The notes beneath the pieces are model-generated. The model was not told the DNA's origin, made no database searches, and saw only the letters and a program-made list of their open reading frames with translations. Below, piece after piece: positions 1 to 64,000 of a DNA stretch of 64,000 nt; position 1 is the first letter of the stretch, and the number at the start of each line of letters is the position of its first letter. Origin of the DNA: Bolinopsis microptera (taxonomy: Eukaryota > Ctenophora > Tentaculata > Lobata > Bolinopsidae); contig NC_087074.1 in assembly GCF_026151205.1 (NCBI RefSeq), positions 19,895,240 through 19,959,239 of the forward strand, given 5' to 3'. The translations under genes and the position numbers were made by a program.

Positions 1-1205
1 CGATTGAGGTGCTGGAAGTTTGATTTCGGTCGGAAGAAGCCCACAGCAGAAAGCTTAACAAAACGAAAAGTTGCATTTTCAAAAAGCTGTCCCATTTTCA
101 AATATGAAATGTTCTGAACCCAAATTTGACAGATTGGATAACATTTTTGCCCACAAACCAATATGTCAGTTAATTGATGATGGTATGAAACCAAATTGAG
201 GTACTGGGAGTCAAAATCCCGGATAAAATTGCAAAATCATATTGTCCCAATCTCTGTCCCATTTTCAGTTTTTGAAGATGAAATTTCCAGGACCGAAATT
301 TTACAGTTTTGACTGAATTTTTGACCTGCAACCAATTAGTAAGTCAACTATAAATGGCATATGACACGATTGAGGTGCTGGAAATTTGATTTCGGTCGGA
401 AGAAGCCCACAGCAGAAAGCTTAACAAAACAAAAAGTTGCATTTTCAAAAAGCTGTCCCATTTTCAAATATGAAATTTTCTGAACCCAAATTTGACAGAT
501 TGGATAACATTTTTGCCCACAAACCAATTAGTCAGTTAATTGATGATGGTATGAAACCAAATTGAGGTACTGGGAGTCAAAATCCCGCATAAAATTGCAA
601 AATCATATTGGCCCAATTTCTGTCCCATTTTCAGTTTTTGAAGATGAAATTTCCAGGAGAGAAATTTTACAGTTTTGATTGAATTTTTGACCTGCAACCA
701 ATTAGTAAGTCAACTATAAATGGCATATGACACGATTGAGGTGCTGGAAGTTTGATTCCGGTCGGAAGAAGCCCACAGCAGAAATCTTAACAAAACGAAA
801 AGTTGCATTTTCAAAAGGCTGTCCCATTTTCAAATATGAAATTTTCTGAACCCAAATTTGACAAACTGGATGACATTTTTGCCCACAAACTAATAAGTCA
901 GTTAATTGATGATGGTATGAAACCAAATTGAGGTACTGGGAGTCAAAATCCCGCATAAAATTGCAAAATCATATTGTCCCAATCTCTGTCCCATTTTCAG
1001 TTTTTGAAGATGAAATTTCCAGGACCGAAGATTTACAGTTTTTACTGATTTTTTCACCTGCAACCAATAACTAATAAGTAAGTCAAATATAAATAACATA
1101 TGATTATGACACGATTGGGGTGCCCAAATTTGACAGACTGGATGACATTTTTGCCCACAAACCAATAAGTCAGTTAATTGATGATGGTATGAAACCAAAT
1201 TGATG
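1..1205. repeat. Dimeric satellite array, copy A
   Basis: Units start at 1, 367, 733 and (truncated) 1112, a 366-bp period. Each 366-bp unit is itself two diverged monomers of about 183 bp: both halves share an ATTGAGGT start, a CTGTCCCATTTTCA block, a GAAATTT..CAG block and an AACCAATTAGT block in the same order. This is a two-monomer higher-order repeat. The array ends at the unique sequence near 1205. Short reading frames on its minus strand are by-products. Confidence 0.9.
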
Positions 1206-2721
1206 TGCCCCACGTTTTGTGGCATATTGATAGAATAAACTATTTCATTTATTATGATCTTTTGAAAATGTCCCCAGAATAGACTCGCCAGTCGCCACCC
1301 GACTACCATCAGCCTTACTTTTCTTTGTTTTCAATTATGAAAGAAATGTAAACTGTTTGAAACGCGACGTTCGATTGTTTAAAGCATCGCTATTGGACTC
1401 ATAGTTGTGCCACATCGGCTTTATGAATCTGTGATACTGTGCATCTATTTTTACTATAGCGGTTGAGAACATTTCATCCATACCTCATATAAGCCTTATA
1501 TGATAGTAATAATGACCCATATACCATCATCTAAGGACCGGTTTTAACCGTTTTGGAGACAAAATTGTAGTTGTATCGCGTAAACTGCCGCAGTAAGGAA
1601 ATCTTCTTATGACTAAAAAGTCACCGGCTACTACTAGCCTACATTTACTTTGCCTTAGACCGCAATACAAGCAGGAATTACAGATAAACGGTAAATAATT
1701 TGAAAAGCGAACCCACTCCCAGGTTTCGAGAGCCTAGTAATTCTCTGTGCGCTTATACTAATACTTATAGTTATTTGGCGCAATGCACAATGAGCAACCG
1801 ATCTCGTTTACAGAGGTAAACCCTTATTTTATCCACGTGATTTGACTGGTTTCAGCTTCTATGTGCGTATTTCTGAAAGGAAGATGTGGTACATGGTAGG
1901 ATGGTGAAAAATCGATTTCAACGACACTTATTATTTTGTGTTTTAATCAGATGGTTTTAATAAAGGTGTCAGATATATTATGGATACAATATTCATATAT
2001 GTATCAACCAGAGTGTAACCGTTAGCATTCTATCGAGAGGCTTTTCCATGATTTCAAGAATTTATTTTAATTTTAACTAATAGTACAAGTGCTACCTACG
2101 ATCGAAATAAAACTATTCATATAATGATAATAAAACGAAATTCGTAAGAATCCAATTTTATTAGTATCAAAAGAAGGGGCAGGTTAAAACTAAAAAGTGG
2201 GTTATTAAAAATCATGAAGCAAAAGCATGCACAAGTGCAGTGGCTACCGCCTGGTCTAATGATATCTCCATCTCTACCACCACCGTACAAAATTAAAATA
2301 TAAAACATCGCCTTGGTTATTCGTGTGTGTGGCAAACCAAAATTCCGAATTCTAGGCTTTTCTCTCCGCTTCACTGCTTGATTTGAAAGCCAAGGGGTGA
2401 GTTAAAAACACAATAAATAAAACAAATGATACTGATATAGTGGACAAAAACAGCAGAAAATATACGTGACCCATTTTACATACCATTGTTATCATATACA
2501 TCAGCACTCTGCACTTATTGTTATAATCATCATGGTAAGATCTGACGCTCTATACAACAGAAATATCACACAAATATTCTTCGTTTGCAGCGTTTGAGGT
2601 GCACGTGCTCAAAACTTGGTGCACGTGCAGAGCCGCGCGCAGCGCGCACATCCTGCACTGTCTGAAACTTGCAACCCTTGGGTAACACATAACCACAGTC
2701 ATTTGGTGTTATTAACGTACG

Positions 2722-5700
2722 TCACGTCAACTTCCAGTCACTCTCCATGTGATATAATAAGTTAGCGATCATGGCTCCGATCCGGGGGTGGGTAAACCGG
2801 GACATGGCCAGGTTGAGGACCCGGTGTTGGTGGGTCAGGAAGAGTTTCTTGTTGTCCGAATACTTGGCCAAGTGTATCAGAGTGAGCGCAGCACGTCGTA
2901 ACATGTCGATACTGGTTCCCCCGCACAGTTCTTCCTGTGATATGTTAGACGGTAACGAGCTGTGCCCCGCCATGTGGGCGTTCAGCGCGAAATTAGCCGC
3001 CGAAGCTTCTGCGTCCTCCAGGAACTTAAGGAGAAGTGAAATGACTTGGGTGAAGTTAGCGAGTTGGTGTGCCACCTCGACACCCTCGTTCCCACCAGTC
3101 TGTGATAAGTTAGACATGATAACCAAGGCGAATTCTCGGGCGACCTGCTGCGTTCTGTCCCCTAACAATAAGACAAGAGCTTTAAACAACGCGGGAATCT
3201 GGTCTTTTATACTCCGAACTATCGGCTGGAGATTGGATGATAATATTGACATTTTTGACAGAGCTTCAAGCATGAGTCTCTGAGGGGTAATGGTAGAAAG
3301 ATAGGCGGGAGGGAACGGGTCAACTGCTTCCGATGACGAGCATGTGACCCAGTGAACTACTGATTGAATCAACGGTGTATACAAAGACTGATTAAAGTTA
3401 CTGAAGTCCAGCTGCCCGCTTATATTTGCCATTATACAAAACGATGATTCTCTGAGAGAGTCCAGAGTTTTCGAAAAGCACCAGCCGCTCGGAAGTCCCA
3501 ATGCTTCTTTTTCTTTGATAGAGCGCTTGCTAGTGCGTTCGAACGATTGATTGCAATCCTGTGACTCCAGTTCACTGTAATGGACATGATGAAGAGACAA
3601 CAACTGAGAAATCATAAGGAGAAATCCGGGATGATGTGAGAGGATCATGTCATTACCGGGGATGAAGGAGAGACTCCGGAAGATGTTCATCACGGACGAG
3701 CACCTGCTGCTAAGATGACGGTCCTGGTCCGACTGGATGAACAGGAACTCGTCCTCAATCTTCACACTTTCGTTTTCTACTCGTTTTTCGTTGGAACTTC
3801 GCAAGCGTTTCCACAGAGCCCTCAGCGATTCTTCGCTGATGTTTTCGTAGTCAATAGCTTTCGCTGCGACTTTGGGGTCTTCTTTCTTGCCGTCATTTAC
3901 TACTGCAACTGTCTCAGGTTTGACACCGTTGACTCCATTCATTTGCGGTATTATAGGATCCTTTATCTGAAGATTATATTAATTAGTTGCTCATTAAGTA
4001 GATATTTGATATTGATAAGGTTTTGATTTAGTCAAGACTGCGCTGAAATCACGAATAATTTGAGTGGTATCGTGGCACTGTACAAAAATGACAAACTAGT
4101 TTGACCTTCTATTACAAAAAACATGAGGCCCTTACCTTGCTAAGTTCCTCCTTGAGTTCCTCTGATGGAATACTTGGAAGATCTGGCTCCATCTTTAGAA
4201 CAGGCTCGTTCTCCTTGTCGGCCCCAACCTCCAACGGTTTAGAGTCACCGAACTTCTGGTCAAGTTCCGACAGATTCACGGGGTATGACGGTGTTAACTT
4301 TAACTTGCTGTTGATTTCGTGCATGGTGTCGATGTAGTCCAGGGATTTGAGACAGTTGTGTTCGATGGTGGGGTAAGGGTCCGCAGACTCCTTAATGGCT
4401 GGGTCTATCACAAGAGTGACAGGAGCAACGTCTTTGTATTTCTTGGTACTCGGCTGTAGGCCGACCAGCTTAGCATCGCTGTACAGCTTACTACCAACTA
4501 CCTTCTCTCCGAATATATCCACTAATACCTGATGATGAACGCAATGTTACACATCGCACAGGTATTGGAAATGTTTATAAAAATGTAAGATGTTTAATTA
4601 ATACTTATATTACTTGTATCATCCATATTTCATGCCTCGTTAAAGGTCAAGTCATAGATCCATACGGCACTCAAATACGGGATTACGGAAATGTTTGTTT
4701 ACCTTTTGGAAGTGGTCCAATAGTCTATCCAGCATCCTGAGCAGGTTGGGATGGTGTCCAAGGTAGAAGTAAGCTACCATTGTGTTATCACACAACAGAA
4801 TGTTCAGCACGTTAACAACCCACGTAGACTCAGTCAGCAGCCCCGATTTCAGGGACATTACCAGTCTGATAGTCTCTACATATCCTGGGGTGGGTTATGT
4901 AATAGAAAACAGTACGGTGTTTGGGAATTCTACCTGTCCCACGGTACAAGTCACAACATGAAATACAACACGAAATCTTAGAGGATTTCCATTACAGTCG
5001 TCCCTTAGTATTATAGAAAGTTGGCGATGTTCTTATACAAAATTAGGGAAATTGGGGGATTAGGTTCTGCCACAATACGGCCAAACAATCTCCCAATTTC
5101 CCCGAAAGTTAAATGCGCATGACTGTATATTAAAGTGTATTATATATATAAAGTGTATATTAAAGTGACTAACCTAGCTCTTTAGAGGTGAGTTTCCTTC
5201 TCTTACTGATGTTGGGGGTCGCCTGTTCGATTGTGGGCGGACCGGAAGGAGGAGCAGGTCGCTCTGAAGGGTGCATCCGAACTGGAGCGAGATGGGAGGA
5301 AGCTGAGGTGGGCATACTGCTGATGGACGGAGTAGTCACGGTAGGGCTGATGTGAAGTGGTTGTGAGGATACTTGTAGGGCCGCTGTTGGGGCCGCTGGG
5401 GCAGAGGAGGAGCTCTTTTTCTTGCTTGAATCGGACTGATTCTGCGGTAAGGTTCAGGTTTAATCGTGGTAAGGGGTAAATAATCTGTTTTCAATTTTTA
5501 ATGAGCAGAGGAACGTCTATTTTTAAACTGTTTAATTAGTCAGAATATATCCTGGTTAAAGCCGTAACAGCAAATAGGGCCCCAAATACATAGCAAAATA
5601 AAAACCTTGGCTCTTTCATTGCTTCTGCCTAAATTGCTCATTTTGGTTGGGGCTGGAGCGACCTGCAAAAAAGTGCTTTAAAACTCAGCCAGCCGATACC

Positions 5701-6704
5701 CATGGAGTGTCTAATATGAGTGAGATCTAAAATGTAAAATGTTGAGATACTCAACTGTTTAAAGCATGAAAAATGATTTGTTTGCAATTTTTCCGGCTGT
5801 TGAAGTTGATGGTGATGATAGCAGTGAAACTCTGGCTACACTCACCTGTAGCCTTGGAGCGGGACTGGGTTGGTAAGGAGGTTGGACTGCGTTAGCCGGG
5901 TACCGATGTATCGTCTGTTCCCCGTATATAGTCGGGCCTGGAGGTGGTTGGTTGCCGGGGTACGGCTGTCTGAATCTCCAGCTATCAGGCCCATGAGGGG
6001 ACATGTGGTCCGGCTGATAAGGTGGTCTCATGTACCCCATGTGGGAGGGGTGGTGTCCAGGATGCCCAGGTGGGTACTGGCCTGGATAATACATGGGAGG
6101 TCTGTACCCAGGGTGGTCAGAAGGTGGGGGTGGTCCTGTAGGAGGAGGACCGTGGAACCCAGACGTCATATTTGGGGGTGGGCCCCCATTGTGAATGTCA
6201 GGAGCAGGATGAGGTCCACCAGGATGGGGTCCAGGGTGGGAGGAGGGAGGGTAGTAGCTGTTATAGTATGTGTTGGGTGGAGCGTACCTCTCCGGCTGCA
6301 CACTTGTTGGTCCCTGTGGAGGTTCTCTGTCAGTACATCCAGACTGTTAACTCTGTTAACACATTGCTTACTTAACGACATCTCAGGACCTAACTTGGCT
6401 AAAGAGTACCAGGTGTTGACCTAAACTAAACCTTACAAAACGGCCAACATATATATCTCACGTTAGTGGTCGCTTGACGTTTTGGAGCGGGCTGTTTGTC
6501 CATGTCAGGACCTCGTCTCATCTCATGGTTTAATCTGAGTGGCTCAGGACCGTGGTCACTCAGGAAGTCCAAACTGTGGTCGAACTTGCATTCAAATGCA
6601 AACAAATACTTGATGTACTGCTTCCTGAGGAAGCTCACGGCACTCTTGTCGTCTTTAATATTGAGGGCTTTAGCTACTTCGTTCCAAGACTTGTTCTTGT
6701 TGAC
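2722..6704 (-). CDS. Partial tandem duplicate of ARID1 (copy A, exons 8-14 only)
   Basis: Seven exons correspond one-to-one to ARID1 exons 8-14: 6462-6704, 5846-6313, 5606-5662, 5174-5441, 4703-4884, 4136-4528 and 2722-3966, in total 952 codons with intact splice sites and no internal stop. Exons 1-7, including the first half of the ARID domain, are absent because homology ends in a minisatellite at 6896-6958. Visible protein differences from copy B are few: Asn/Lys in exon 10, Leu/Ile and Ala/Pro in exon 11, Asn/Thr in exon 14. No 5' exon or promoter of its own is evident. It could be spliced from upstream ARID1 exons as an alternative 3' end, be a dead duplicate, or reflect two haplotypes assembled side by side. 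Confidence 0.75.
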
Positions 6705-6895
6705 CTGGGAGATGGGAGAATTACATTCTCAGAAAAATGTTAATAATGGCTTCATCGCCTATTATTGAAACTACTGATAAGTAGTGTTAATACTAGAAGC
6801 ATGCTCAAAGGAGTTTCATAAGCGAATGACAGCGGCAAACGCAGTTTTGTATCCCAAGGGAACCAATAACTAACTGAAGGACCCTGCATTAAGTC

Positions 6896-6958
6896 TGCAC
6901 TATACACACTACACAGCGCACTATACACACTACACAGCGCACTATACACACTACACAG
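6896..6958. repeat. Minisatellite at right edge of copy A
   Basis: About three units of a CACTATACACACTACACAGCG motif. Homology between the two duplicated segments stops here, so this is a likely recombination breakpoint. Confidence 0.85.
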
Positions 6959-9418
6959 TTTTACCATTTACTCAGTTTTTGAAAATGTACAATTTAACCT
7001 GGTTTGATGCATCTAATTTATCGTTTTGTTGTTGTTGCATATTGTTTGCATCCATGGTAGCTTGTCAATTGTATAGAGTTTCATTGGTGTGTAATCCGAA
7101 TTATAAATATCATTAACATTAATTGTTTACTTTTATTTTAATTTATCCTTGTATGATACAACTATTATTGACCACGCAGCTGTGAATCTTAACTAATTAA
7201 AGTAGCTGAATAGGTCGCATATTTTTGCGGTTTTAAATGGCGCATTTCAATTCTCCGCTATTTAATCTGGGTTTTTATTTTTCTTTATTTATTTGATGCC
7301 ACGTTTAAGTTCTTACTCAAAGTTAAACTTATTAATGTGGAAAAAATCTTGATTTTTCAGTTAATTCTTATCAGCATATTCTTGACTCAATAATGAATAA
7401 CACGGACCACCGTTTGTTATCACGATCAAGTTTTTCAATTTCCATTCCTTTTTGGATGACGAACTTACCGTGATAAAATATTTATTCTTATATAGCATGA
7501 TTTAAACTTATTAAAGTTACCGGTTACATATCTTCACGAACTATTATTTCAGGTTATAATAGGAATATTTATTTTTGCCATCGTCTTAAATGATTTAACT
7601 TCAATATTTCTTCTCTCACATCATTGTTACATATCATTTTGAACGGAATTGTATGATGTATTGCATGTTAATATAATACGATAACAAAATTTTGTGTTAT
7701 TTTAAAATTAGATGAAATAACATCGTTTTATTATATATTTGGGTGGGAATAATGTACACGTTAGAGTTAGACAGAAATTAATTTAAGGGTTAAGACGACC
7801 TGGTCACTATACGGTCTGAAAATAACTGCGAAATAACTTTCGTGTTTTGATGAATAAGGTCAAAGTGAGAATTGTAAATTATAATTTCATCGCATAATTA
7901 CCACGTCAACCTCTAATTTAATGATAATTAATTCCAGAAAACCTTGCATGAAATGAAACTTACTTGATCGCGCTCAGACTGCCAAAAAAGCGCTTATTAG
8001 GCGATTATTATTGCAGAATAGAATATATCCTTCAGGATTTAACACACAGTTAATTGTATAACAATCTCGAAGATCGACTGTATTGGAAGATATGGAACAG
8101 TCGACTAACTATAGTAGAGTGTAGAACTAGACTGACTAATTGGTTGCGGGTCAGAAATTTGGTCAAAACTGTAAAATGTCGGGCCGGCCCTTGACTTCCA
8201 GTACTTAAGCTAATTCCCATATTATAATCCCTAAAGTAACTTTACATTCATTAGAGTCTTCCTCTGAAGGAAGGCTCGCCAGAACATGTGAAGCCGGAAG
8301 CGTGCTCTTCTCCTGGGAGAAAATGCACACCTGAGCTGCTGCACTAGATCGATTTCCTGCTCCACCGTCAACTATTAGAGTTGAAATAGATCTTAAATTC
8401 GACTGCAGAATGAGAGGGTTCTTGCCTATTTGATGCTCAAACTAGCATTTTCCTAGTTTCCGTCACACACAGAGAACTTCCTTTAATCGGTCACGTGAGG
8501 GTCACGAGATAGCGATTCAGCGCGCTTAGTGGCGGCATCTAGCACGTGATATTTGCACAGGTAATTACACGCCATATAAGTCATAATTAACAGGGGGACT
8601 GTTGAGCTAGCTCTGATCGGTGTATCACTTGCAGGCTGCATCTAGCACGTGATATTTGCACACCTAATTACACGCCATATATGGGAGGAGCTAGGGGTAG
8701 CCGTACGTACAAGTAAATGTTCCGCGTAAACTATGTTGGTATAAAAGTAACTTTGGTTTAATGAAAGTGTGTGAGGACCGTGTACAGTTGGCAGTGCACT
8801 GGTTTGTCGTTCAAGTGGTTAGAACGTGGGTCTGTCCGAACTATCCGAAATCGTTGTTACGTTGAAAGCTGTACCTCAGTTCGATTATCATGTTACCTAG
8901 CTAGTAACTTGGTGATTGAACAGAGAGTGGAAAACCAGACGAAAGTAAAGATGAAGTCTCGGGGACTGGGGTAGCGGCTGATGATGGGCATGATTAATTA
9001 AAGAGCCCTAGGTCGCTCCCCAAACCGGTCCAATAACACATTTTCTAAAAATTTTTACTAGCCTGTCACGTGACCAAAATAGACGCTGCTGTTGTCAGCT
9101 ATATTCGTCTAGTCCAGTGCACATTTCTAAAAGCTCTAGTTCCATGAATCAAGCTGATGTTTATGTGTTTGCTACCAGCCAATGGTCCAATATTCTTTTT
9201 AATATCGTAGTTTTGCTATTGCAGCTCATCATATGTATTTTAGCAAATTTTGTTTTATCATAATCGTAGTTATCCAAATTTATCAGCCGGATTTATTTGG
9301 CAAAAATTAGAGAAAGATAAGCAAATATTGAACCTGAAATTCCCAATTCGGCTGCTTACTCTTGACAGGCACGTAGCCAGGGTGCCTCACTCTTGATTAC
9401 TTGGGGTGGCCGCTAACG
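6959..9418. other. AT-rich spacer between the two duplicated segments
   Basis: I see no convincing gene. It contains a 44-bp near-perfect direct repeat (8535-8578 and 8638-8681), each copy with a CACGTG E-box, a TATAAAAG at 8740, and a weak tRNA-like stretch from about 8812. If the duplication is a simple tandem event, this spacer should be the start of the repeat unit and recur left of the window. Confidence 0.5.
8812..8893 (+). repeat. Possible tRNA-derived SINE head
   Basis: An A-box-like segment (AAGTGGTTAGAACG) and a B-box-like segment (CAGTTCGATTAT) lie about 55 bases apart, in the right order for a Pol III internal promoter. Stems are not convincing enough for a functional tRNA. Low confidence. 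Confidence 0.25.
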
Positions 9419-10547
9419 TTAATTGATGATGGTATGAAACCAAATTGAGGTACTGGGAGTCAAAATCCCGGATAAAATTGCAAAATCATATTGTCCCAAT
9501 CTCTGTCCCATTTTCAGTTTTTGAAGATGAAATTCCAGGACCGAAATTTTACAGTTTTGACTGAATTTTTGACCTGCAACCAATTAGTAAGTCAACTATA
9601 AATGGCATATGACACGATTGAGGTGCTGGAAGTTTGATTTCGGTCGGAAGAAGCCCACAGCAGAAAGCTTAACAAAACGAAAAGGTGCATTTTCAAAAAG
9701 CTGTCCCATTTTCAAATATGAAATTTTCTGAACCCAAATTTGACAGATTGGATAACATTTTTGCCCACAAACCAATATGTCAGTTAATTGATGATGGTAT
9801 GAAACCAAATTGAGGTACAGGGAGTCAAAATCCCGGATAAAATTGCAAAATCATATTGTCCCAATCTCTGTCCCATTTTCAGTTTTTGAAGATGAAATTT
9901 CCAGGACCGAAATTTTACAGTTTTGACTGAATTTTTGACCTGCAACCAATTAGTAAGTCAACTATAAATGGCATATGACACGATTGAGGTGCTGGAAATT
10001 TGATTTCGGTCGGAAGAAGCCCACAGCAGAAAGCTTAACAAAACAAAAAGTTGCATTTTCAAAAAGCTGTCCCATTTTCAAATATGAAATTTTCTGAACC
10101 CAAATTTGACAGATTGGATAACATTTTTGCCCACAAACCAATTAGTCAGTTAATTGATGATGGTATGAAACCAAATTGAGGTACTGGGAGTCAAAATCCC
10201 GCATAAAATTGCAAAATCATATTGGCCCAATTTCTGTCCCATTTTCAGTTTTTGAAGATGAAATTTCCAGGAGAGAAATTTTACAGTTTTGATTGAATTT
10301 TTGACCTGCAACCAATTAGTAAGTCAACTATAAATGGCATATGACACGATTGAGGTGCTGGAAGTTTGATTCCGGTCGGAAGAAGCCCACAGTAGAAATC
10401 TTAACAAAACGAAAAGTTGCATTTTCAAAAGGCTGTCCCATTTTCAAATATGAAATTTTCTGAACCCAAATTTGACAGACTAGATGACATTTTTGCCCAC
10501 AAACCAATAAGTCAGTTAATTGATGATGGCATGAAACCAAATTGATG
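9419..10547. repeat. Dimeric satellite array, copy B
   Basis: Same 366-bp dimeric units, starting at 9615, 9981 and 10347, preceded by a partial unit from 9419. The junction to unique sequence is the same as in copy A, but copy B lacks about one to one and a half monomers before it. Position 1 of the window corresponds to 9615. Confidence 0.9.
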
Positions 10548-13488: not shown

Positions 13489-16400
13489 CTGAAGATTATA
13501 TTAATTAGTTGCTCATTTGGAGATACTGATAAGTAGATATTTGATAAGGTTTTGATTTAGTCAAGACTGCGCTGAAATCACGAATAATTTGAGTGGTATC
13601 GTGGCACTGTACAAAAATGACAAACTAGTTTGACCTTCTATTACAAAAAACGTGAGGCCCTTACCTTGCTAAGTTCCTCCTTGAGTTCCTCTGATGGAAT
13701 ACTTGGAAGATCTGGCTCCATCTTTAGAACAGGCTCGTTCTCCTTGTCGGCCCCAACCTCCAACGGTTTAGAGTCACCGAACTTCTGGTCAAGTTCCGAC
13801 AGATTCACGGGGTATGACGGTGTTAACTTTAACTTGCTGTTGATTTCGTGCATGGTGTCGATGTAGTCCAGGGATTTGAGACAGTTGTGTTCGATGGTGG
13901 GGTAAGGGTCCGCAGACTCCTTAATGGCTGGGTCTATCACAAGAGTGACAGGAGCAACGTCTTTGTATTTCTTGGTACTCGGCTGTAGGCCGACCAGCTT
14001 AGCATCGCTGTACAGCTTACTACCAACTACCTTCTCTCCGAATATATCCACTAATACCTGATGATGAACGCAATGTTACACATCGCACAGCTATTGGAAA
14101 TGTTTATAAAATGTAAGATGTTTAATTAAATACTTATATTACTTGTATCATCCATATTTCATGCCTCGTTAAAGGTCATAGATCCATACGGCACTCAAAT
14201 ACGGGATTACGGAAATGTTTGTTTACCTTTTGGAAGTGGTCCAATAGTCTATCCAGCATCCTGAGCAGGTTGGGATGGTGACCAAGGTAGAAGTAAGCAA
14301 CCATTGTGTTATCACACAACAGTATGTTCAGCACGTTAACAACCCACGTAGACTCAGTCAGCAGCCCCGATTTCAGGGACATTACCAGTCTGATAGTCTC
14401 TACATATCCTGGGGTGGGTTATGTAATAGAAAACAGTACGGTATTTGGGAATTGTACACGTCCCACGGTACAAGTCACAACATGAAATACAACACGAAAT
14501 CTTAGAGGATTTCCATTACAGTCGTCCCTTAGTATTATAGAAAGTTGGCGATGTTCTTATACAAAATTAGGGAAATTGGGGGATTAGGTTCGGCCACAAT
14601 ACGGCCAAACATGATCTCCCAATTTCCCCGAAAGTTAAATGCGCGTGACTAACCGAGCTCTTTAGAGGTGAGTTTCCTTCTCTTACTGATGTTGGGGGTC
14701 GCCTGTTCGATTGTGGGCGGACCGGAAGGAGGAGCAGGTCGCTCTGAAGGGTGCATCCGAACTGGAGCGAGATGGGAGGAAGCTGAGGTGGGCATACTGC
14801 TGATGGACGGAGTAGTCACGGTAGGGCTGATGTGAATTGGTTGTGAGGATACTTGTAGGGCCGCTGTTGGGGGCGCTGGGGCAGAGGAGGAGCTCTTTTT
14901 CTTGCTTGAATCGGACTGATTCTGCGGTAAGGTTCAGGTTTAATCGTGGTAAGGGGTAAATAATCTGTTTTAAATTTTTAATGAGCAGAGGAACGTCTAT
15001 TTTTAAACTGTTTAATTAGTCAAAATATATCCTGGTTAAAGCCGTAACAGCAAATAGGGCCCCAAATACATAGCAAAATAAAAACCTTGGCTCTTTCCTT
15101 GCTTCTGCCTAAATTGCTCATTTTGGTTGGGGCTGGAGCGACCTGCAAAAAAGTGCTTTAAAACTCAGCCAGCCGATACCCATGGAGTGTCTAATATGAG
15201 TGAGATCTAAAATGTAAAATGTTGAGATACTCAACTGTTTAAAGCATGAAAAATGATTTGTTTGCAATTTTTCCGGCTGTTGAAGTTGATGGTGATGATA
15301 GCAGTGAAACTCTGGCTACACTCACCTGTAGCCTTGGAGCGGGACTGGGTTGGTAAGGAGGTTGGACTGCGTTAGCCGGGTACCGGTGTATCGTCTGTTC
15401 CCCGTATATAGTCGGGCCTGGAGGTGGTTGGTTGCCGGGGTACGGCTGTCTGAATCTCCAGCTATCAGGCCCATGAGGGGACATGTGGTCCGGCTGATAA
15501 GGTGGTCTCATGTACCCCATGTGGGAGGGGTGGTGTCCAGGATGCCCAGGTGGGTACTGGCCTGGATAATACATGGGAGGTCTGTACCCAGGGTGGTCAG
15601 AAGGTGGGGGTGGTCCTGTAGGAGGAGGACCGTGGAACCCAGACGTCATATTTGGGGGTGGGCCCCCATTGTGAATGTCAGGAGCAGGATGAGGTCCACC
15701 AGGATGAGGACCAGGGTGGGAGGAGGGAGGGTAGTAGCTGTTATAGTATGTGTTGGGTGGAGCGTACCTCTCGGCTGCACACTTGTTGGTCCCTGTGGGG
15801 GTTCTCTGTCAGTACATCCAGACTGTTAACTCTGTTAACACATTGCTTACTTAACGACATGTCAGGACCTAACTTGGCTAAAGAGTACCAGGTGTTGACC
15901 TAAACTAAACCTTACAAAACGGCCAACATATATATCTCACGTTAGTGGTCGCTTGTCGTTTTGGAGCGGGCTGTTTGTCCATGTCAGGACCTCGTCTCAT
16001 CTCATGGTTTAATCTGAGTGGCTCAGGACCGTGGTCACTCAGGAAGTCCAAACTGTGGTCGAACTTGCATTCAAATGCAAACAAATACTTGATGTACTGC
16101 TTCCTGAGGAAGCTCACTGCACTCTTGTCGTCTTTAATATTGAGGGCTTTAGCTACTTCGTTCCAAGACTTGTTCTTGTTGACCTGGGAGATGGGAGAAT
16201 TACATTCTCAGAAAAATGTTAATAATGGCTTCATTGCCTATTATTGAAACTACTGATAAGTAGTGTTAATACTAGAAGCATGCTCAATTCTCAAAGGAGT
16301 TTCATATTCGAATAACAGCGGCAAACGCAGTTTTGTATCCCAAGGGAACCAATAACTAACTGAAGGACCCTGCATTAAGTCTGCACTATACACACTACAC

Positions 16401-19400
16401 AGTGCACTATACACAGTGCACAGTGCACTATACACAGTGCACAGTGCACTATACACACTACACAGTGCACTATACACACTACACAGTGCACTATACACAG
16501 TGCACAGTGCACAGTGCACTATACACACTACACAGTGCACTATACACACTACACAGTGCACTTTACACAGTGCACTATACACAGTGCACTATACACACTA
16601 CACAGTGCACTATACACAGTGCACTATACACAGTGCACTATATATCAGAAAACGACACTCAACGAAGCGTATCAAGCCGCCGCTAAACAATACAACTGTA
16701 CGCAGCTTGAGTCTGCTCAGTGCACGTTACTCTCTTACAGACAGTACAATTTATGTCTAAATACCGTCACTGAACTAAGTCGGATATGATAATAATATAT
16801 ATATATAATATATATGTTTTGCGTCATGGCTCTCAATACTATACAACAGGAGAGAGAGAGAGAGAGAGAGAGCATGTAATGCAATTAGCCAATGACTGCA
16901 CAGCGTGCACCGACAACAGATCAATAAGGCCAGGTTCACGTGATATGTATTAGCCAATCACGCCCCACCATAGCAACGCTATAATTAGCGGGAGAGAGCG
17001 TAAAGCGGCAATTTCAAACACAGCACACTTGGCTTAGTTAATTTCGTGTCGTGCGGGTATATGTCTTGCAATCTGTACTCTTTTTCGGTGTGGGTATATG
17101 TCTTGCAATCTGTACTCTTTTTCGGTGTGGCTGTTGTGTTATTTTTGAGGTTGTAGAAGATACTCGGTACAATATCACAAGTTACGGGCGTGATCCTTAC
17201 CTCGGGCATTCCGTTTCTCCGGCAAACTTCTCTGTAAAGCTTGTACAGATCCAGAGGAATGTTGTTGGTGTTGTCTGCCATGGGGACCCGTAGGCACGGC
17301 GTCCCGTTTTGCTCCATGAAATCTTTGAAGGTGTCGAGGAACTTCTTACGCTGGGGTTCGTCCCCAAGTTCGTACTGCTTGGCGTAGGGTAGGTGACCAC
17401 TGGAACTGGCACTGTTTTTAATGTCGTCCTCTGAGAGCTGCGGAGACGGACTCGACAGTTGGGGAGTAGCAGTAATGTTCGGGGTGATCCTGTAAAACGG
17501 GCTGGTTGAAGGAAACATCGATATATCATCATGAATTATAACCCATTAAGAGAATTCGAGCGTAATTAGATATGCGTAAAGAGGAAATTATAAGTGGCGA
17601 ATAAAAATCATGAAATTTGGTTGAAATGAGAAATGAGCACTCACAGGGTGTGCCTGGTGTTGTGAGGGAATATGTTGATGGTTTGAGGAGTGAAACTCTT
17701 CAGTGTAATCACAGCATGTTTTTGATGTTGAGAATAGCTTATTTGACGGTCAGTAAGTTTATGAGCTGTCGGTGAGGACATATGAATATACGTAGGAATA
17801 ATGCTCAAATTAATGTTTAAATAATTAAATCGATTGTGAAAATAAGCCTTTAAAGAATGAAATTTTAATTTGTAAAATGGAGGTATGAATGTTGATGCGA
17901 TAGTATTGGAATAACTGACCCATTATTAAGAGCAGGGGGAGGCTGCTGGTTCATGCCATGCTGAGTGGGCGGAGCTGCACTCATGACATGTTGTTGAGGA
18001 TGTTGGGGTTGTCCTCCCGGAGACATCTGAGAGCGCTGCTGCATGGCCACAGAGGAAGGGGGTGGCACTGGTCCTCGGGGACTACTCGGTGGCTGGGACC
18101 GGTGCTGGATGTGCACGTTGTTTGGGGTCGAGATCATGGGGTTTGAGTTGTGCGGTGTTCGCATGTTGTAGTTCATTTGGCTCTGTGGCGGCACTGAGTT
18201 AGATATAGGAGACTTCGTCCCTGGAAAAAAGAGAGGTTAAATTTGAATTAGAAAGATTAGAAAACAGTTTGGACAGTTTGATAGATCGAAAGAAACCATT
18301 TGAAGGGTGGTTTTGTCATAAAGGACCAATAATTAATGATGCTTACTCGGGACGTGATGTGGCATTGGTCCGTTGAGAGAGGACGGAGGTGGTCCCTGGT
18401 ATTGAGAAACAGGTGGCTGACTGTGAACATATCTTATCTTATCAGAGGGGTGCAACCCGGCTGTAGGAGGGTAGTACCCCTGGTGATCCACCGACATTGG
18501 GGGTGCTGGATACTGGTGCATGTAACCCTGTAAAATATAAGAAGTTTAGGAATATAAACCAAGGAAGCCTCTAACCACCAATAATCGAATGAAAGTACTG
18601 GAGAAGGGACAGTGAGATTAGATGAGGTGAAACTGACTGACCCGATGATCCGGAACAGAGCTATTCTTGTCGTGTGGTTGGTTGGGAGGTGGTCCATGGT
18701 GCACAATACTAGTCTTCGGTGGGTAAGGGAGTCTGGAGGCGCCATAGGGCGGATAGGGGGGTCCGTTGTAGTGGGAATGGTGGTATTGCTGCGGTAACAT
18801 TACCGTCCGAGGACTACCGGACATGTGGTTGCTGGCGTGTTCCACTCCTGGCTATAATAAAGAAGGGTGGTTAGTTTAGTTATTTTACATCTGTTCTAAA
18901 ATCCAAGTTTATTTCTTTCGGAGTGACGACGTGTCGCCCCATTTTAATTTCTACAAAGACTGCGCCAGAAACGCACGTGCGAACTACTGAAGTGGACGAT
19001 AGCAGTTGGATACTTTTATTGTTCCAAGACGCGCATTGACTCAAAATTCGCAATTGTTAGTATTATGAGGTGCGCGCGTTGAACGAAACAGTGTGAGGCC
19101 GGTAGGTTCAGTGGCGCCAATCCATTACTCAATAACGTGACTCCCACCAGAGCGAGAGACCTCCCTTTACAGTACGCATGTTTTGACCAACAATGTGATG
19201 TCCACTAACTAGAACGGAGAAGAGGAGAGCACGGTTTTAGATTATCACGGTCTGATTGAAGGGAAGGACGTGGTTTTATAGGACTAGATAATGAATGTGT
19301 AGAATGTACATTGCGGTGTAACTGTGTACTTTTTATCTTACCTTAGTCGTAACCCCCATTTGACCCATTCAAACAAAGTATCTGAAGATTTTCCATTTAA

Positions 19401-59819: not shown

Positions 59820-62800
59820 TCACATAACAACATTCGCATCATCGTCTCCGACTCTTTCTGACTCTTTTTTCTTCTCCAAAACGTTCTTAAACTGCTCAGT
59901 CATAACCTTCCTGACCTCATTCAGAGCTCCCTTAGTGTAGAACCCATGCTCATGAGAATACACGTCAGTTTCAAAGTTTTTGAGGACTGCTTGACATCTT
60001 GTGTCCTGTATATCACAAACCTGGACAAGAAGTATTAATCATTAGCATTAAGTTAAGCACTTTAAGTGCATTGTCATCATTATTTTTACATAGTTTAATA
60101 GATTACATAACTTAGTATGATGCGTCTACTGATACGATATATCGGTGCGGACTAAGATTTGTACAATCGTCAACATTATTTTTACTCCATACCACATACA
60201 CACTCATCATTGGCGGTTGGCAGTTGCAACGTTTCGCAATTATACTATACATGCTTGATAAGCTTTTAACTTTCAACATATATTATGTTGAAAGTTTAAG
60301 GCTTGAATGAATACGTTCCAGTAAAACTGATTCCTATAATTATCAGTAATGGCCCTCAAATTAAGAGAATTATATCCTATAATTACAATATAATAACCCT
60401 TAACCACAAGCAACCTGGTAATGCGACTGTCGTTTAAAAGGAAGCTTGTCAGCTTTGTAGATATGACTTGTTAAAGCATCCTCGCTCGATTCTATCTCAC
60501 TCGTCTCAGGTTTACCAATCCTTGACCTGTTCGTCTTGTTGTAACTGTACCGCTGTGGAAGGTGTGGTCTTTAAAAATAAGGATAGGTATCCCACAAAAT
60601 AGTTAAAAGTTGGTGTATAAAACCGTGATTAGCGCTTATTTCTCAGAAATGTGATTCTTAGTATCATTATATAAATGAATTGAAGTAGAACTTTATATTT
60701 TAATATTTTCACCACTACTTTAAATACTATTTATAGTTATATATATAACGAGTTATATTATACAACGAATAATTTGAGGAAGCGATGTAACAGAGCCAAT
60801 GTATTTAAAGTCCCCAATCATTACAACCTGCTAATTTCACTGCCTCTTAATACAACACAGTACAATACATAATACATAATACATAATACATATACCCCAT
60901 ATAACATATTCATATCATCATACCATTAGGATATTAACGAGAAGCGTTTAAGTGTGGTGGATACTTTAAGTCAAACAGTTGCTTTATATGGACATATTAC
61001 ATAGAAATAAGACACATTGTCTCGTTTTACCTCAATATGACCAGCAGTCTCTCAATATGACCAGCAGTCTCTCAATATGACCAGCAGTCTCTCAATATGA
61101 CCAGCAGTCTCTCAATATGACCAGCAGTCTCTCAATATGACCAGCAGTCTCTCAATATGACCAGCAGTCTCTCAATATGACCAGGTCTCTCAATATGACC
61201 AGCAGTCTCTCAATATGACCAGGTCTCTCAATATGACCAGCAGTCTCTCAATATGACCAGCAGTCTCTCGATATGACTAACAGTCTCTCGAAGATGGTCC
61301 GCTATACTTTTTATAAACGTTTTTAAATTCAATCATAACTTAAAGAATTAGTAACGTGGAGTAAAGTATAATTAAATAAAAGTAAAGTAGAGTGGAGTGA
61401 AAAGTAAAGAAAAGTCGATATAAGATAAACTTGTCACTATATGGTGCTGTCACTATATAATAGTGCGTTTTGCACGCTATATAGTGACAAATATCAGCTG
61501 TCATTATAAAGTGCTTGTCATTATATAGTGTTGTCACTATATAGTGCGATTACCGACCAGATTACAGGGAGAGTGTGTGAAACTAACCTTGACAGCAGAT
61601 TTAGCCTGAACTATTCTCGGTGCTCTGAAGTCTATAAGTTGGTAGGTTCTGTTTAGGGCGTTTGTTCTCGGGTCACAACCCAACTTAATCCACATACCTC
61701 TCCACGGACCTGTAGGTGAAAAAGTTCGTTTAACATTGCATACTGGCATTAGTTTGAAAAATTTACAGAATTTCGAATTGTTTGCTCAAACATTAAAGTT
61801 TAAAATTGAGATAAAGCTACTAACTATACTAACCAGTGTTACAGTAGAATTAAGGTTTAAAGTTGAGATAAAGCTACTAACTATACTAACCAGTGTTACA
61901 GTAGAATTAAGGTTTAAAGTTGAGATAAAGCTACTAACTATACTAACCAGTGTTACAGTAGAATTAAGGTTTAAAGTTGAGATAAAGCTACTAACTATAC
62001 TAACCAGTGTTACAGTAGAATTAAGGTTTAAAGTTGAGATAAAGCTACTAACTATACTAACCAGTGTTACAGTAGAATTAAGGTTTAAAGTTGAGATAAA
62101 GCTACTAACTATACTAACCAGTGTTACAGTAGAATTAAGGTTTAAAGTTGAGATAAAGCTACTAACTATACTAACCAGTGTTACAGTAGAATTAAGGTTT
62201 AAAATTGAGATAAAGCTATTAACTATACTAACCAGTGTTACAGTAGAATTAAGGTTTAAAGTTGAGATAAAGCTACTAACTATACTAACCAGTGTTACAG
62301 TAGAATTAAGGTTTAAAGTTGAGATAAAGCTACTAACTATACTAACCAGTGTTACAGTAGAATTAAGGTTTAAAATTGAGATAAAGCTATTAACTATACT
62401 AACCAGTGTTACAGTAGAATTAAGGTTTAAAGTTGAGATAAAGCTACTAACTATACTAACCAGTGTTACAGTAGAATTAAGGTTTAAAGTTGAGATAAAG
62501 CTACTAACTATACTAACCAGTGTTACAGTAGAATTAAGGTTTAAAGTTGAGATAAAGCTACTAACTATACTAACCAGTGTTACAGTAGAATTAAGGTTTA
62601 AAGTTGAGATAAAGCTACTAACTATACTAACCAGTGTTACAGTAGAATTAAGGTTTAAAATTGAGATAAAGCTATTAACTATACTAACCAGTGTTACAGT
62701 AGAATTAAGGTTTAAAGTTGAGATAAAGCTACTAACTATACTAACCAGTGTTACAGTAGAATTAAGGTTTAAAGTTGAGATAAAGCTACTAACTATACTA

Positions 62801-63265
62801 ACCAGTGTTACAGTAGAATTAAGGTTTAAAATTGAGATAAAGCTATTAACTATACTAACCAGTGTTACAGTAGAATTAAGGTTTAAAGTTGAGATAAAGC
62901 TACTAACTATACTAACCAGTGTTACAGTAGAATTAAGGTTTAAAATTGAGATAAAGCTATTAACTATACTAACCAGTGTTACAGTAGAATTAAGGTTTAA
63001 AATTGAGATAAAGCTACTAACTATACTTACCAGTGTTACAGTAGAATTAAGGTTTAAAATTGAGATAAAGCTATTAACTATACTAACCAGTGTTACAGTA
63101 GAATGCGAAGTGGGGCAGGAGGGTAGTTCTTAAGGGCACTTCTCTAATCTCAATAATATTAGCAAACGATGACGTAGTCCAAATGGGTCTACTCCGGAAC
63201 ATTTCGTCTATTTTATCTCTAAACTCGTTTATGTAGTTTTGTTTGAATACGTTCAGTTCCAAATC
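59820..63265 (-). CDS. GTF3C5: TFIIIC subunit GTF3C5 homologue (TFC1-like), 3' part
   Basis: Subunit of the Pol III factor TFIIIC that helps bind tRNA-gene promoters. Four exons seen: 63088-63265, 61588-61709, 60415-60552 and 59820-60020, phases consistent, ending in TGA. Together about 213 codons. Recognisable segments are MFRSRPIW, LLPHFAFYCNTGPWRGMWIK, LGCDPR, TYQLIDFR, SAVKRYSYN and a C-terminal Lys/Glu-rich tail, all matching the C-terminal half of GTF3C5 (for example SRNA..LLP, TGPWR.LWIRFGYDPR, YQVLDFR). The 5' exons lie beyond the right edge; I find none between 63266 and 64000. The first intron seen is almost filled by a 57-bp minisatellite that copies the exon end and donor. Confidence 0.88.
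61031..61292. repeat. 20-bp minisatellite in GTF3C5 intron
   Basis: About thirteen copies of CTCAATATGACCAGCAGTCT, with two shortened 17-bp units (CCAGGTCT) and diverged right-end copies. Lies in the intron between 60552 and 61588. Confidence 0.92.
61434..61548. repeat. Cluster of CACTATATAGTG palindromes
   Basis: Five full or partial copies of the 12-bp palindrome CACTATATAGTG, several preceded by TGT, forming overlapping hairpins (for example around 61446-61489). Ends about 40 bp from the exon at 61588. Confidence 0.7.
61797..63104. repeat. 57-bp minisatellite, 23 units, carrying splice donors
   Basis: Units differ at very few sites (GTTGAG/ATTGAG and CTACTAA/CTATTAA). On the minus strand each contains TTCTACTGTAACACTG then GTTAGTATAG, which is the last 16 bases of the GTF3C5 exon plus its donor. 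The true donor is at 63086-63087; 22 copies lie every 57 bp down to 61832. Because 57 is a multiple of three and stop-free on the plus strand, it produces a long artificial reading frame. Confidence 0.95.
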
Positions 63266-63646: not shown

Positions 63647-64000
63647 GTACGGCTAGTTAAACAGGGAATTGAAACTGTGGGGCTCCGTGCAGACCAACCT
63701 ACCTGTGGCTAAAGCTATAATATACAAAAACAATACATGGATAAACTTGTACCACTTACCCATGCTTTTAGTATTTCTACAATATGGTCTACGACTTTTA
63801 CACAGCATAATACCCCATGATGTCGTTTATTTTTAATTCTCTTTGCTGTATTGTATATGTACTATTTGTAAAAGTTTCAAATCAAATCAAATCAAGAAGT
63901 AAGTTTGAACTTGGGAAAGTTCTTCTTGAAATATATATAATATAAGTGATTACTTTCAAAACAGATGACATGTCCGCGACCTGCAAATTTGTATATTTTA

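Follow-up and report, generated by a model that had tools for sequence, protein, structure and literature searches.

The locus and its array

The window studied here is a stretch of 64,000 nucleotides of the Bolinopsis microptera genome (contig NC_087074.1, positions 19,895,240 to 19,959,239), and its minus strand is read from homology as holding the 3′ part of GTF3C5, a subunit of TFIIIC (TFIIIC tau95). One intron of this gene is occupied by a minisatellite in which every unit carries the end of the upstream exon together with a 5′ splice site (donor). The features are given below with positions of the window; all lie on the minus strand, and a slash marks a splice site throughout.

61792 to 63104: minisatellite of 57-bp units, 23.0 copies, each unit made of 17 nt of exon end and 40 nt of intron with the donor (Tandem Repeats Finder, TRF; unit table)
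63088 to 63265: GTF3C5 exon, helix-turn-helix part of tau95, its last 17 nt being unit 1 of the array (splice reading, Pfam Tau95, PDB 9gi4 and 8clk)
63082 to 63087: authentic donor GTTAGT, unit 1, exon phase 1, the frame carrying on in 61709–61588
63025 to 63030: donor of unit 2, the sole GTAAGT, predicted U1 duplex −11.7 kcal/mol versus −7.8 kcal/mol for the GTTAGT units
61710 to 63087: arrayed intron, 1378 nt, or 124 nt after 22 units are subtracted
61588 to 61709: next GTF3C5 exon, acceptor TTCACCTACAG/GTCCG
61031 to 61289: minisatellite of 20-bp units, 13.1 copies, in the following intron, touching no junction (TRF)
60021 to 61587: following intron, 1567 nt
59820 to 60020: final GTF3C5 exon including the stop

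The 5′ end of the exon at 63088–63265, with the acceptor ATCAG/GATTTG, was positioned by eye. For the array TRF gave a period of 57, 23.0 copies, 98% matches and a score of 2514, and 1291 (61797–63087) of the 1378 nt of the intron are array. On the minus (sense) strand there are 23 donors, at positions 61833 + 57n with 63087 as the last, the interval being exactly 57 bp throughout. An earlier note, made from the sequence alone, had proposed 23 tandem copies carrying the GTF3C5 exon end with its 5′ splice site, and this is borne out by TRF and the unit table; its donor positions (61832 + 57n) were one off, and the 16 exonic bases it allowed to each unit are corrected to 17 (63088–63104 in unit 1), which are invariant in 23 of 23 units. 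The donors, which it had called identical, are so in the 22 units that read CTG/GTTAGT and not in unit 2 (first intron base 63030), which reads CTG/GTAAGT.

A search of the organism's own genome with the array, in which very common words were skipped, gave one match at one location, its own locus. A second copy or allele was sought through both flanks and the array (for the flanks, scoring covered 40 of 378 and 40 of 210 first-look candidates), and these searches returned the own locus and short interspersed repeats, with no second array found. Such interspersed repeats lie at 61294–61559 and 63744–63895 and have tens of other genomic copies.

Gene identity and reading frame

On the minus strand the exon ends in ...TTCTACTGTAACACTG, followed by GTTAGT, and the next exon runs from 61709 after TTCACCTACAG. 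When the exon ending at 63088 is spliced to 61709–61588, the junction reads ...LLPHFAFYCNTG/PWRGMWIKLGCDPR... and the peptide ...HFAFYCNTG/PWRGMWIKLG... in phase 1. The conceptual peptide matched Tau95 in Pfam (E 1.1e-21) and the PDB entries 9gi4 (E 4.4e-14) and 8clk (E 1.8e-13), whose chains are General transcription factor 3C polypeptide 5. Because these alignments cross the exon boundary through '..TGPWR..', the exon end, the acceptor and the frame are supported. The authentic junction therefore is the rightmost unit, as had been claimed (exon end 63088, donor 63087), and the reading frame does continue into 61588–61709, on which the earlier note had made its proposal of a junction origin depend.

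Consequences of downstream donor choice

Splicing from any downstream donor would put GGT TAG into the message, with an in-frame stop at once; the claim to this effect was right for 22 of the 22 downstream donors of GTF3C5. Among the 13 donors of GTF3C5 and the GTPase gene beside it, GTTAGT is the most frequent hexamer with 3 cases, which makes unit 1 a donor of the usual kind in this genome. In three loci that were cut out, four U1 5′ ends read ATACTTACCTG; a U1 variant fitting GTTAGT was rejected for these four copies, the search for U1 having listed 10 matches. By predicted U1 pairing the strongest donor is unit 2, and therefore correct mRNA would require the exon-proximal donor to beat equal or better neighbours. 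With the other 22 donors equal in strength, or stronger in the predicted case of unit 2, leakage to unit 2 and later donors is likely on this pairing; the leaked mRNA would carry a premature TAG and would be degraded or give a truncated protein.

Origin of the array

Inner units of the array read AAACCTTAATTCTACTG, where intron is joined to exon end, and the acceptor-proximal unit ends differently, in AAACTTTAATG, after which ordinary intron (AAACTTTAATGTTTGAG) begins. Ordinary intron adjoins the array on this distal side only. Since the reading frame and the homology fix the exon end, and since the farthest unit runs into ordinary intron, we infer that a 57-bp segment across the junction was duplicated; the junction origin of the minisatellite, as first proposed, is supported on these three grounds. 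The segment would have taken in the 3′ end of the GTF3C5 exon together with the 5′ part of what was then a short intron (about 124 nt), and at the putative break only AT is common to both sides, as judged by eye. Later expansion to 23 copies, with partial homogenisation, may have proceeded by slippage or unequal exchange, and the array presumably originated by slippage. Only four positions vary in the whole array of 57 bp by 23 units, and two main unit types, ..TTAATAG..AATTTT.. (6 units) and ..TTAGTAG..AACTTT.. (15 units), follow each other irregularly, with mixed units at 2 and 23; the array is therefore young or homogenised.

Seven introns of the neighbouring translation-GTPase gene are 103–300 nt long, and 124 nt falls in this range. 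That gene carries an EF-Tu-type GTPase domain, and we take it to be eRF3-like. By arithmetic, for a 57-bp duplication that keeps the exons of a 124-nt intron readable, 112 of 180 placements span a splice site. As most tolerated duplications in so short an intron span a splice site, junction arrays are to be expected and no special attraction to junctions is needed. The exon-proximal, outermost junction is intact, so that the protein would still be made if the spliceosome uses unit 1, which is probably the donor predominantly used. An earlier intron of GTF3C5, at its acceptor, and junctions in other genes probably went through the same process.

An acceptor array in an earlier GTF3C5 intron

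Further loci of the genome are given here by L numbers, the first of them being L010 (C3:19958740–19966000).

L010, 1909 to 2761: acceptor-bearing array of 54-bp units, 15.9 copies, before the Tau95_N exon of GTF3C5

The unit of this array, ...TAATAACAGTACC...CTGATTTCCCTTTTCCCAG/AGTGCC..., combines a branch-like word (by eye), a pyrimidine tract and AG. Its 16 acceptors are spaced by 53 bp, then by 54 bp thirteen times and then by 49 bp, and the last of them opens the exon leading into Tau95_N (Pfam E 3e-8); a PDB search with the N-terminal peptide of GTF3C5 gave no match at 1e-3. When the four nearest upstream acceptors were translated, the nearest gave a frameshift and the other three TGA, the intron phase being a guess by eye, as is the presumed first exon of GTF3C5 (MADDDPIAMD...) on which it depends. 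On the strand shared with GTF3C5, a TELO2-like gene occupies L010:3521–6106 as a single open frame of 861 codons (PF10193, E 6.7e-25), which ends about 260 bp before that presumed first exon.

An SMC2 intron with arrays at both ends

One SMC2 intron (L032 and L078, C2:10946440–10950260) has a donor array at its 5′ end and an acceptor array at its 3′ end. The donor array holds at least 44 donors of 61 bp (42 matches listed). The acceptor array (L078) is of 43-bp units in 5.0 copies, stands right before the next SMC2 exon (E 2.8e-17), and its unit ends in ...CTTATAATTGCAG/GTTGGGTTC. Those downstream donor choices that were readable lead to a stop or a frameshift. About 43 kb from the SMC2 donor array, at C2:10992771–10993816 and beyond, there is a second array whose unit is almost the same.

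Junction arrays at other genes

The whole genome was searched for three donor words at minisatellite spacing. Four pattern searches gave 25 arrays among the matches listed, and 24 of these were fetched with their upstream flank; the control set consisted of 20 of the 21 arrays that control words had listed. For each array the longest open frame touching it was taken on either strand and was scanned with Pfam if it had at least 25 codons, which covered 22 of the 24 donor-word and 14 of the 20 control loci. PDB searches were made for six donor-word loci only. The arrays with a match to a plausible gene (E ≤ 1e-3) in the array-touching frame are these:

L029, donor-side array: dynein (Pfam; PDB E 2.9e-13)
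L030, donor-side array: zinc finger (Pfam)
L032, donor-side array: SMC2 (PDB E 1.1e-25, the alignment reaching the residue just before the donor)
L035, donor-side array: WD40 (Pfam)
L040, donor-side array: homeodomain of a homeobox gene (Pfam E 3.2e-13, aligned to the last residue)
L049, donor-side array: TSP_C, thrombospondin C-terminal domain (Pfam)
L044, acceptor-side array on the other strand: CEP76 (Pfam)
L045, acceptor-side array on the other strand: 7tm, rhodopsin-type receptor (Pfam)

They make 8 of 24 donor-word arrays versus 1 of 20 control arrays (Fisher p 0.027). The sole control match was a Ras exon (L062) ending 41 residues short of the array. With Pfam alone the counts are 7 (of 24) versus 1 (of 20), p 0.054, and when the match is limited to 20 residues or fewer from the array, which is the fairer comparison, they are 6 of 24 versus 0 of 20, p 0.025. 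Eight more arrays look junction-like by eye without significant homology: L027 (sushi-like), L028, L034, L039, L042, L043 (acceptor side), L046 and L050; weak scores were obtained for L042 (E 0.027) and L046 (E 0.0096), and homology searches with the frame of L028 found no match. Among the controls, L051 resembles a GTGAGT donor array by eye. Two hits were set aside as spurious or repeat-borne, a Phage_holin match in L033 (Pfam E 4.2e-5), which is spurious and within repeats, and the PDB matches of L034 (down to E 6.2e-6), which lie in a Thr-Pro repeat.

The length of the array-touching frame is a weaker measure. On the strand of the word the median of the longest frame was 44 versus 32 codons (p 0.01), a weak result from 23 donor-word and 18 control loci, and for both strands together it was 66 versus 40 (p 0.013); three loci with less than 300 nt of flank were dropped from this test. 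A codon-usage score beside the arrays was set aside as underpowered, since just 46% of the windows known to be coding reach its 95% level; one donor array (L032) and no control passed it. On the inspected junctions, splice-junction arrays recur at other genes of this genome.

In the 13 donor arrays whose frame could be set, GTF3C5 included, 137 downstream donors are visible within the fetched stretches; 136 give an in-frame stop, one gives a frameshift and none stays open. The frames of L027, L028, L034, L039, L042 and L046 rest on eye reading or weak homology. The insert length is divisible by three in 73 of the 137, a count driven largely by the arrays of 54 bp (43 donors) and 57 bp (22 donors).

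Some further observations were made on these arrays. Read as its reverse complement, the donor word GGTTAGT becomes ACTAACC, which resembles a branch point, and L043 (by eye), L044 and L045 look acceptor-side on the other strand. The donor-array units of L027, L028, L029 and L032 hold a run of four or more G (GAGGGG...), and such runs might promote the birth of repeats or splicing. In L030 (TTTATCAG/GTTAGT) and L037 (TTATTTCAG/GTAAGT) a pyrimidine tract with CAG is followed by the donor, so that acceptor and donor stand back to back as in recursive splicing.

Word counts and abundance

The word GGTWAGT, occurring three times at a spacing of 45–75 over the whole genome, gave 14,574 matches, against 1,044 (the word backwards), 4,068, 960, 4,342 and 7,624 for control words of equal composition; one control word, GTGWGAT, may itself contain a GTGAG donor. 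Stricter words, compared only with themselves read backwards, gave 648 versus 2 (AAGGTAAGT), 171 versus 0 (CAGGTAAGT) and 2,393 versus 626 (TGGTTAGT), and the acceptor word TTTNCAGG gave 1,433 versus 117. These counts are of matches and not of arrays, and a few large arrays dominate them. The first 100 GGTWAGT matches are five arrays in the first 1.084 Mb of C1, and extrapolation from this one stretch gives about 1,200 donor-word arrays genome-wide (Poisson about 400 to 2,850), not all of them at junctions.

Weighing the reading

The reading we favour, to which we give a probability of about 0.75, is that these arrays are minisatellites born at splice junctions and tolerated since the original splice site stays in place, with leakage to downstream sites giving unproductive mRNA. 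Several points weigh against it. In GTF3C5 the donor mainly used may be one other than unit 1, as far as the sequence can tell. The homology ends 47 residues before the array in L029 and 17 residues before it in L049; the open frame of L029 runs on past the match and repeats the matched part through a 171-bp duplication. Six of the 24 arrays have no junction by eye (L031, L036, L037, L038, L047 and L048), and two have too little flank to be judged (L033 and L041). The 24 are those fetched of the first 25 listed by the four pattern searches, selected by donor words and so non-random, and the SMC2 match came from the PDB searches, which covered donor-word loci only. None of the four acceptor-word arrays that were fetched (L074–L077) showed a junction: nothing was recognised in the translations of L074 and L077, the array of L075 exceeds its stretch, and in L076 a coding-looking exon stands about 130 nt after the array and not at it (by eye). 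The word counts, finally, were dropped as proof of genome-wide enrichment, their controls ranging noisily from 960 to 7,624; the case rests on the inspected junctions because the counts are noisy and dominated by a few large arrays.

Known relatives

The units of the GTF3C5 array are tandem and of minisatellite size (57 bp by 23.0, 98%) and unit 1 is the authentic donor of the exon, as in the donor-bearing splice-junction minisatellites of the IFI6 and ABCA7 type, and the array is a member of this known kind. In human IFI6 (also 6-16 or G1P3) a 12-bp unit is reportedly present in 26 copies. Two downstream units of this minisatellite with multiple donors, the subject of Turri et al. (1995), are used and three mRNA species result, according to PMC4526556. 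These species reportedly encode different isoforms, unlike the downstream donors of GTF3C5, which give a stop.

Intron 18 of human ABCA7 holds a variable number tandem repeat (VNTR) of 25 bp that includes the donor of exon 18, with 23.7 copies in the reference genome; use of the donor one unit on adds one unit, shifts the frame and leads to a premature stop, and with longer alleles expression is lower and exon 19 is skipped more often, as stated in the accessible portion of that study (PMC5954066). Both repeats stand directly at the exon with the donor within the unit, and in both a downstream donor leads to a premature stop. The first two bases of the VNTR are the donor GT, and in that portion of the study exon sequence is not described in the unit, whereas the GTF3C5 unit has 17 exonic bases; moreover the stop in GTF3C5 is immediate instead of following a frameshift, the same gene has a separate acceptor array, and the ABCA7 case has human population data. 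A further likeness is to the VNTR of hTERT intron 6, where the number of copies of a 38-bp intronic tandem repeat alters splicing, going by the part of the paper seen (PMC3948165). What is new here are the exonic bases in the unit, the separate acceptor array in the same gene and the recurrence over unrelated genes of one genome; among the papers listed by searches of an open-licence library, none describes minisatellites at splice junctions in ctenophores or across a whole genome.

Other explanations

The array could also act as a copy-number rheostat, in which unit number, together with the stronger unit 2, would determine how much of the mRNA is spliced to downstream donors and lost to nonsense-mediated decay, array length thereby tuning the level of a TFIIIC subunit. 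A rheostat coupled to this decay calls for a premature stop upon downstream donor use, which is found at 22 of 22 donors, and the best predicted U1 pairing at unit 2 points the same way, as do the single-unit retention with frameshift and the lower expression of longer alleles in ABCA7. However, unit retention in ABCA7 was constant with length and it was exon 19 skipping that changed, going by the same accessible portion (PMC5954066). Arrays at unrelated genes (SMC2, dynein, homeobox) moreover point to a general mutational process and not control of TFIIIC, and they speak against a device peculiar to TFIIIC. Tolerated slippage is the plain alternative that explains the anatomy of the GTF3C5 array, and the rheostat is possible, if unlikely.

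Far less probable is a selected redundancy, by which many donors would recruit more U1, buffer splice-site mutation or strengthen exon definition. All 23 donors have an intact GT and the 17 exonic bases are invariant throughout, but with only four variable positions the invariance of 17 of 57 positions is not significant ((40/57)^4 = 0.24), and recent homogenisation accounts for it. Tandem repeats are often misassembled, the GTF3C5 array is known here from one assembly and its unit number there may be wrong; that the array as such is an artefact, with its unit number inflated or collapsed, is very improbable given the irregular order of the two unit types, the single genomic location and the similar arrays at other genes. 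An introner-like or dispersed intron element was rejected, as the array DNA matched only itself (very common words skipped), and so was an array of recursive-splice (ratchet) sites, the unit being ACTGTAACACTG/GTTAGT with no AG before GT.

Other repeats in the window

Two 366-bp satellite arrays lie at 1–1068 and 9418–10545, about 9.4 kb apart, and similar 15-bp and 21-bp arrays lie near 6205–6958 and 15685–16642 (TRF). The pairing of the 366-bp, 15-bp and 21-bp arrays suggests a larger duplicated block.

Value of the data

1. To our knowledge, choice among equal 5′ splice sites has mostly been studied in two-site constructs. The arrays described here provide a natural test of this choice: SMC2 has at least 44 sites and GTF3C5 has 23. 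Clean use of the first site would mean that the exon-proximal rule is far stronger than predicted from site strength; otherwise, the length of the array would be a mutable dial of expression.

2. Junctions within such arrays are easily mis-called, and annotation of them calls for caution. For Bolinopsis microptera, RNA-seq and Iso-Seq evidence is described in the paper on its genome (PMC10232365), and these existing data could address the choice of donor.

3. A wider view, which we regard as doubtful, is that in this ctenophore genome minisatellites arise again and again at the splice junction itself, in many genes, with SMC2 and GTF3C5 among the essential ones. An array would then hold anything from a few donors or acceptors, nearly identical to one another, to over 40, some introns would carry arrays at both ends, the spliceosome of this lineage would follow a dependable exon-proximal rule, and the length of the array would set a heritable and fast-mutating level of unproductive mRNA.

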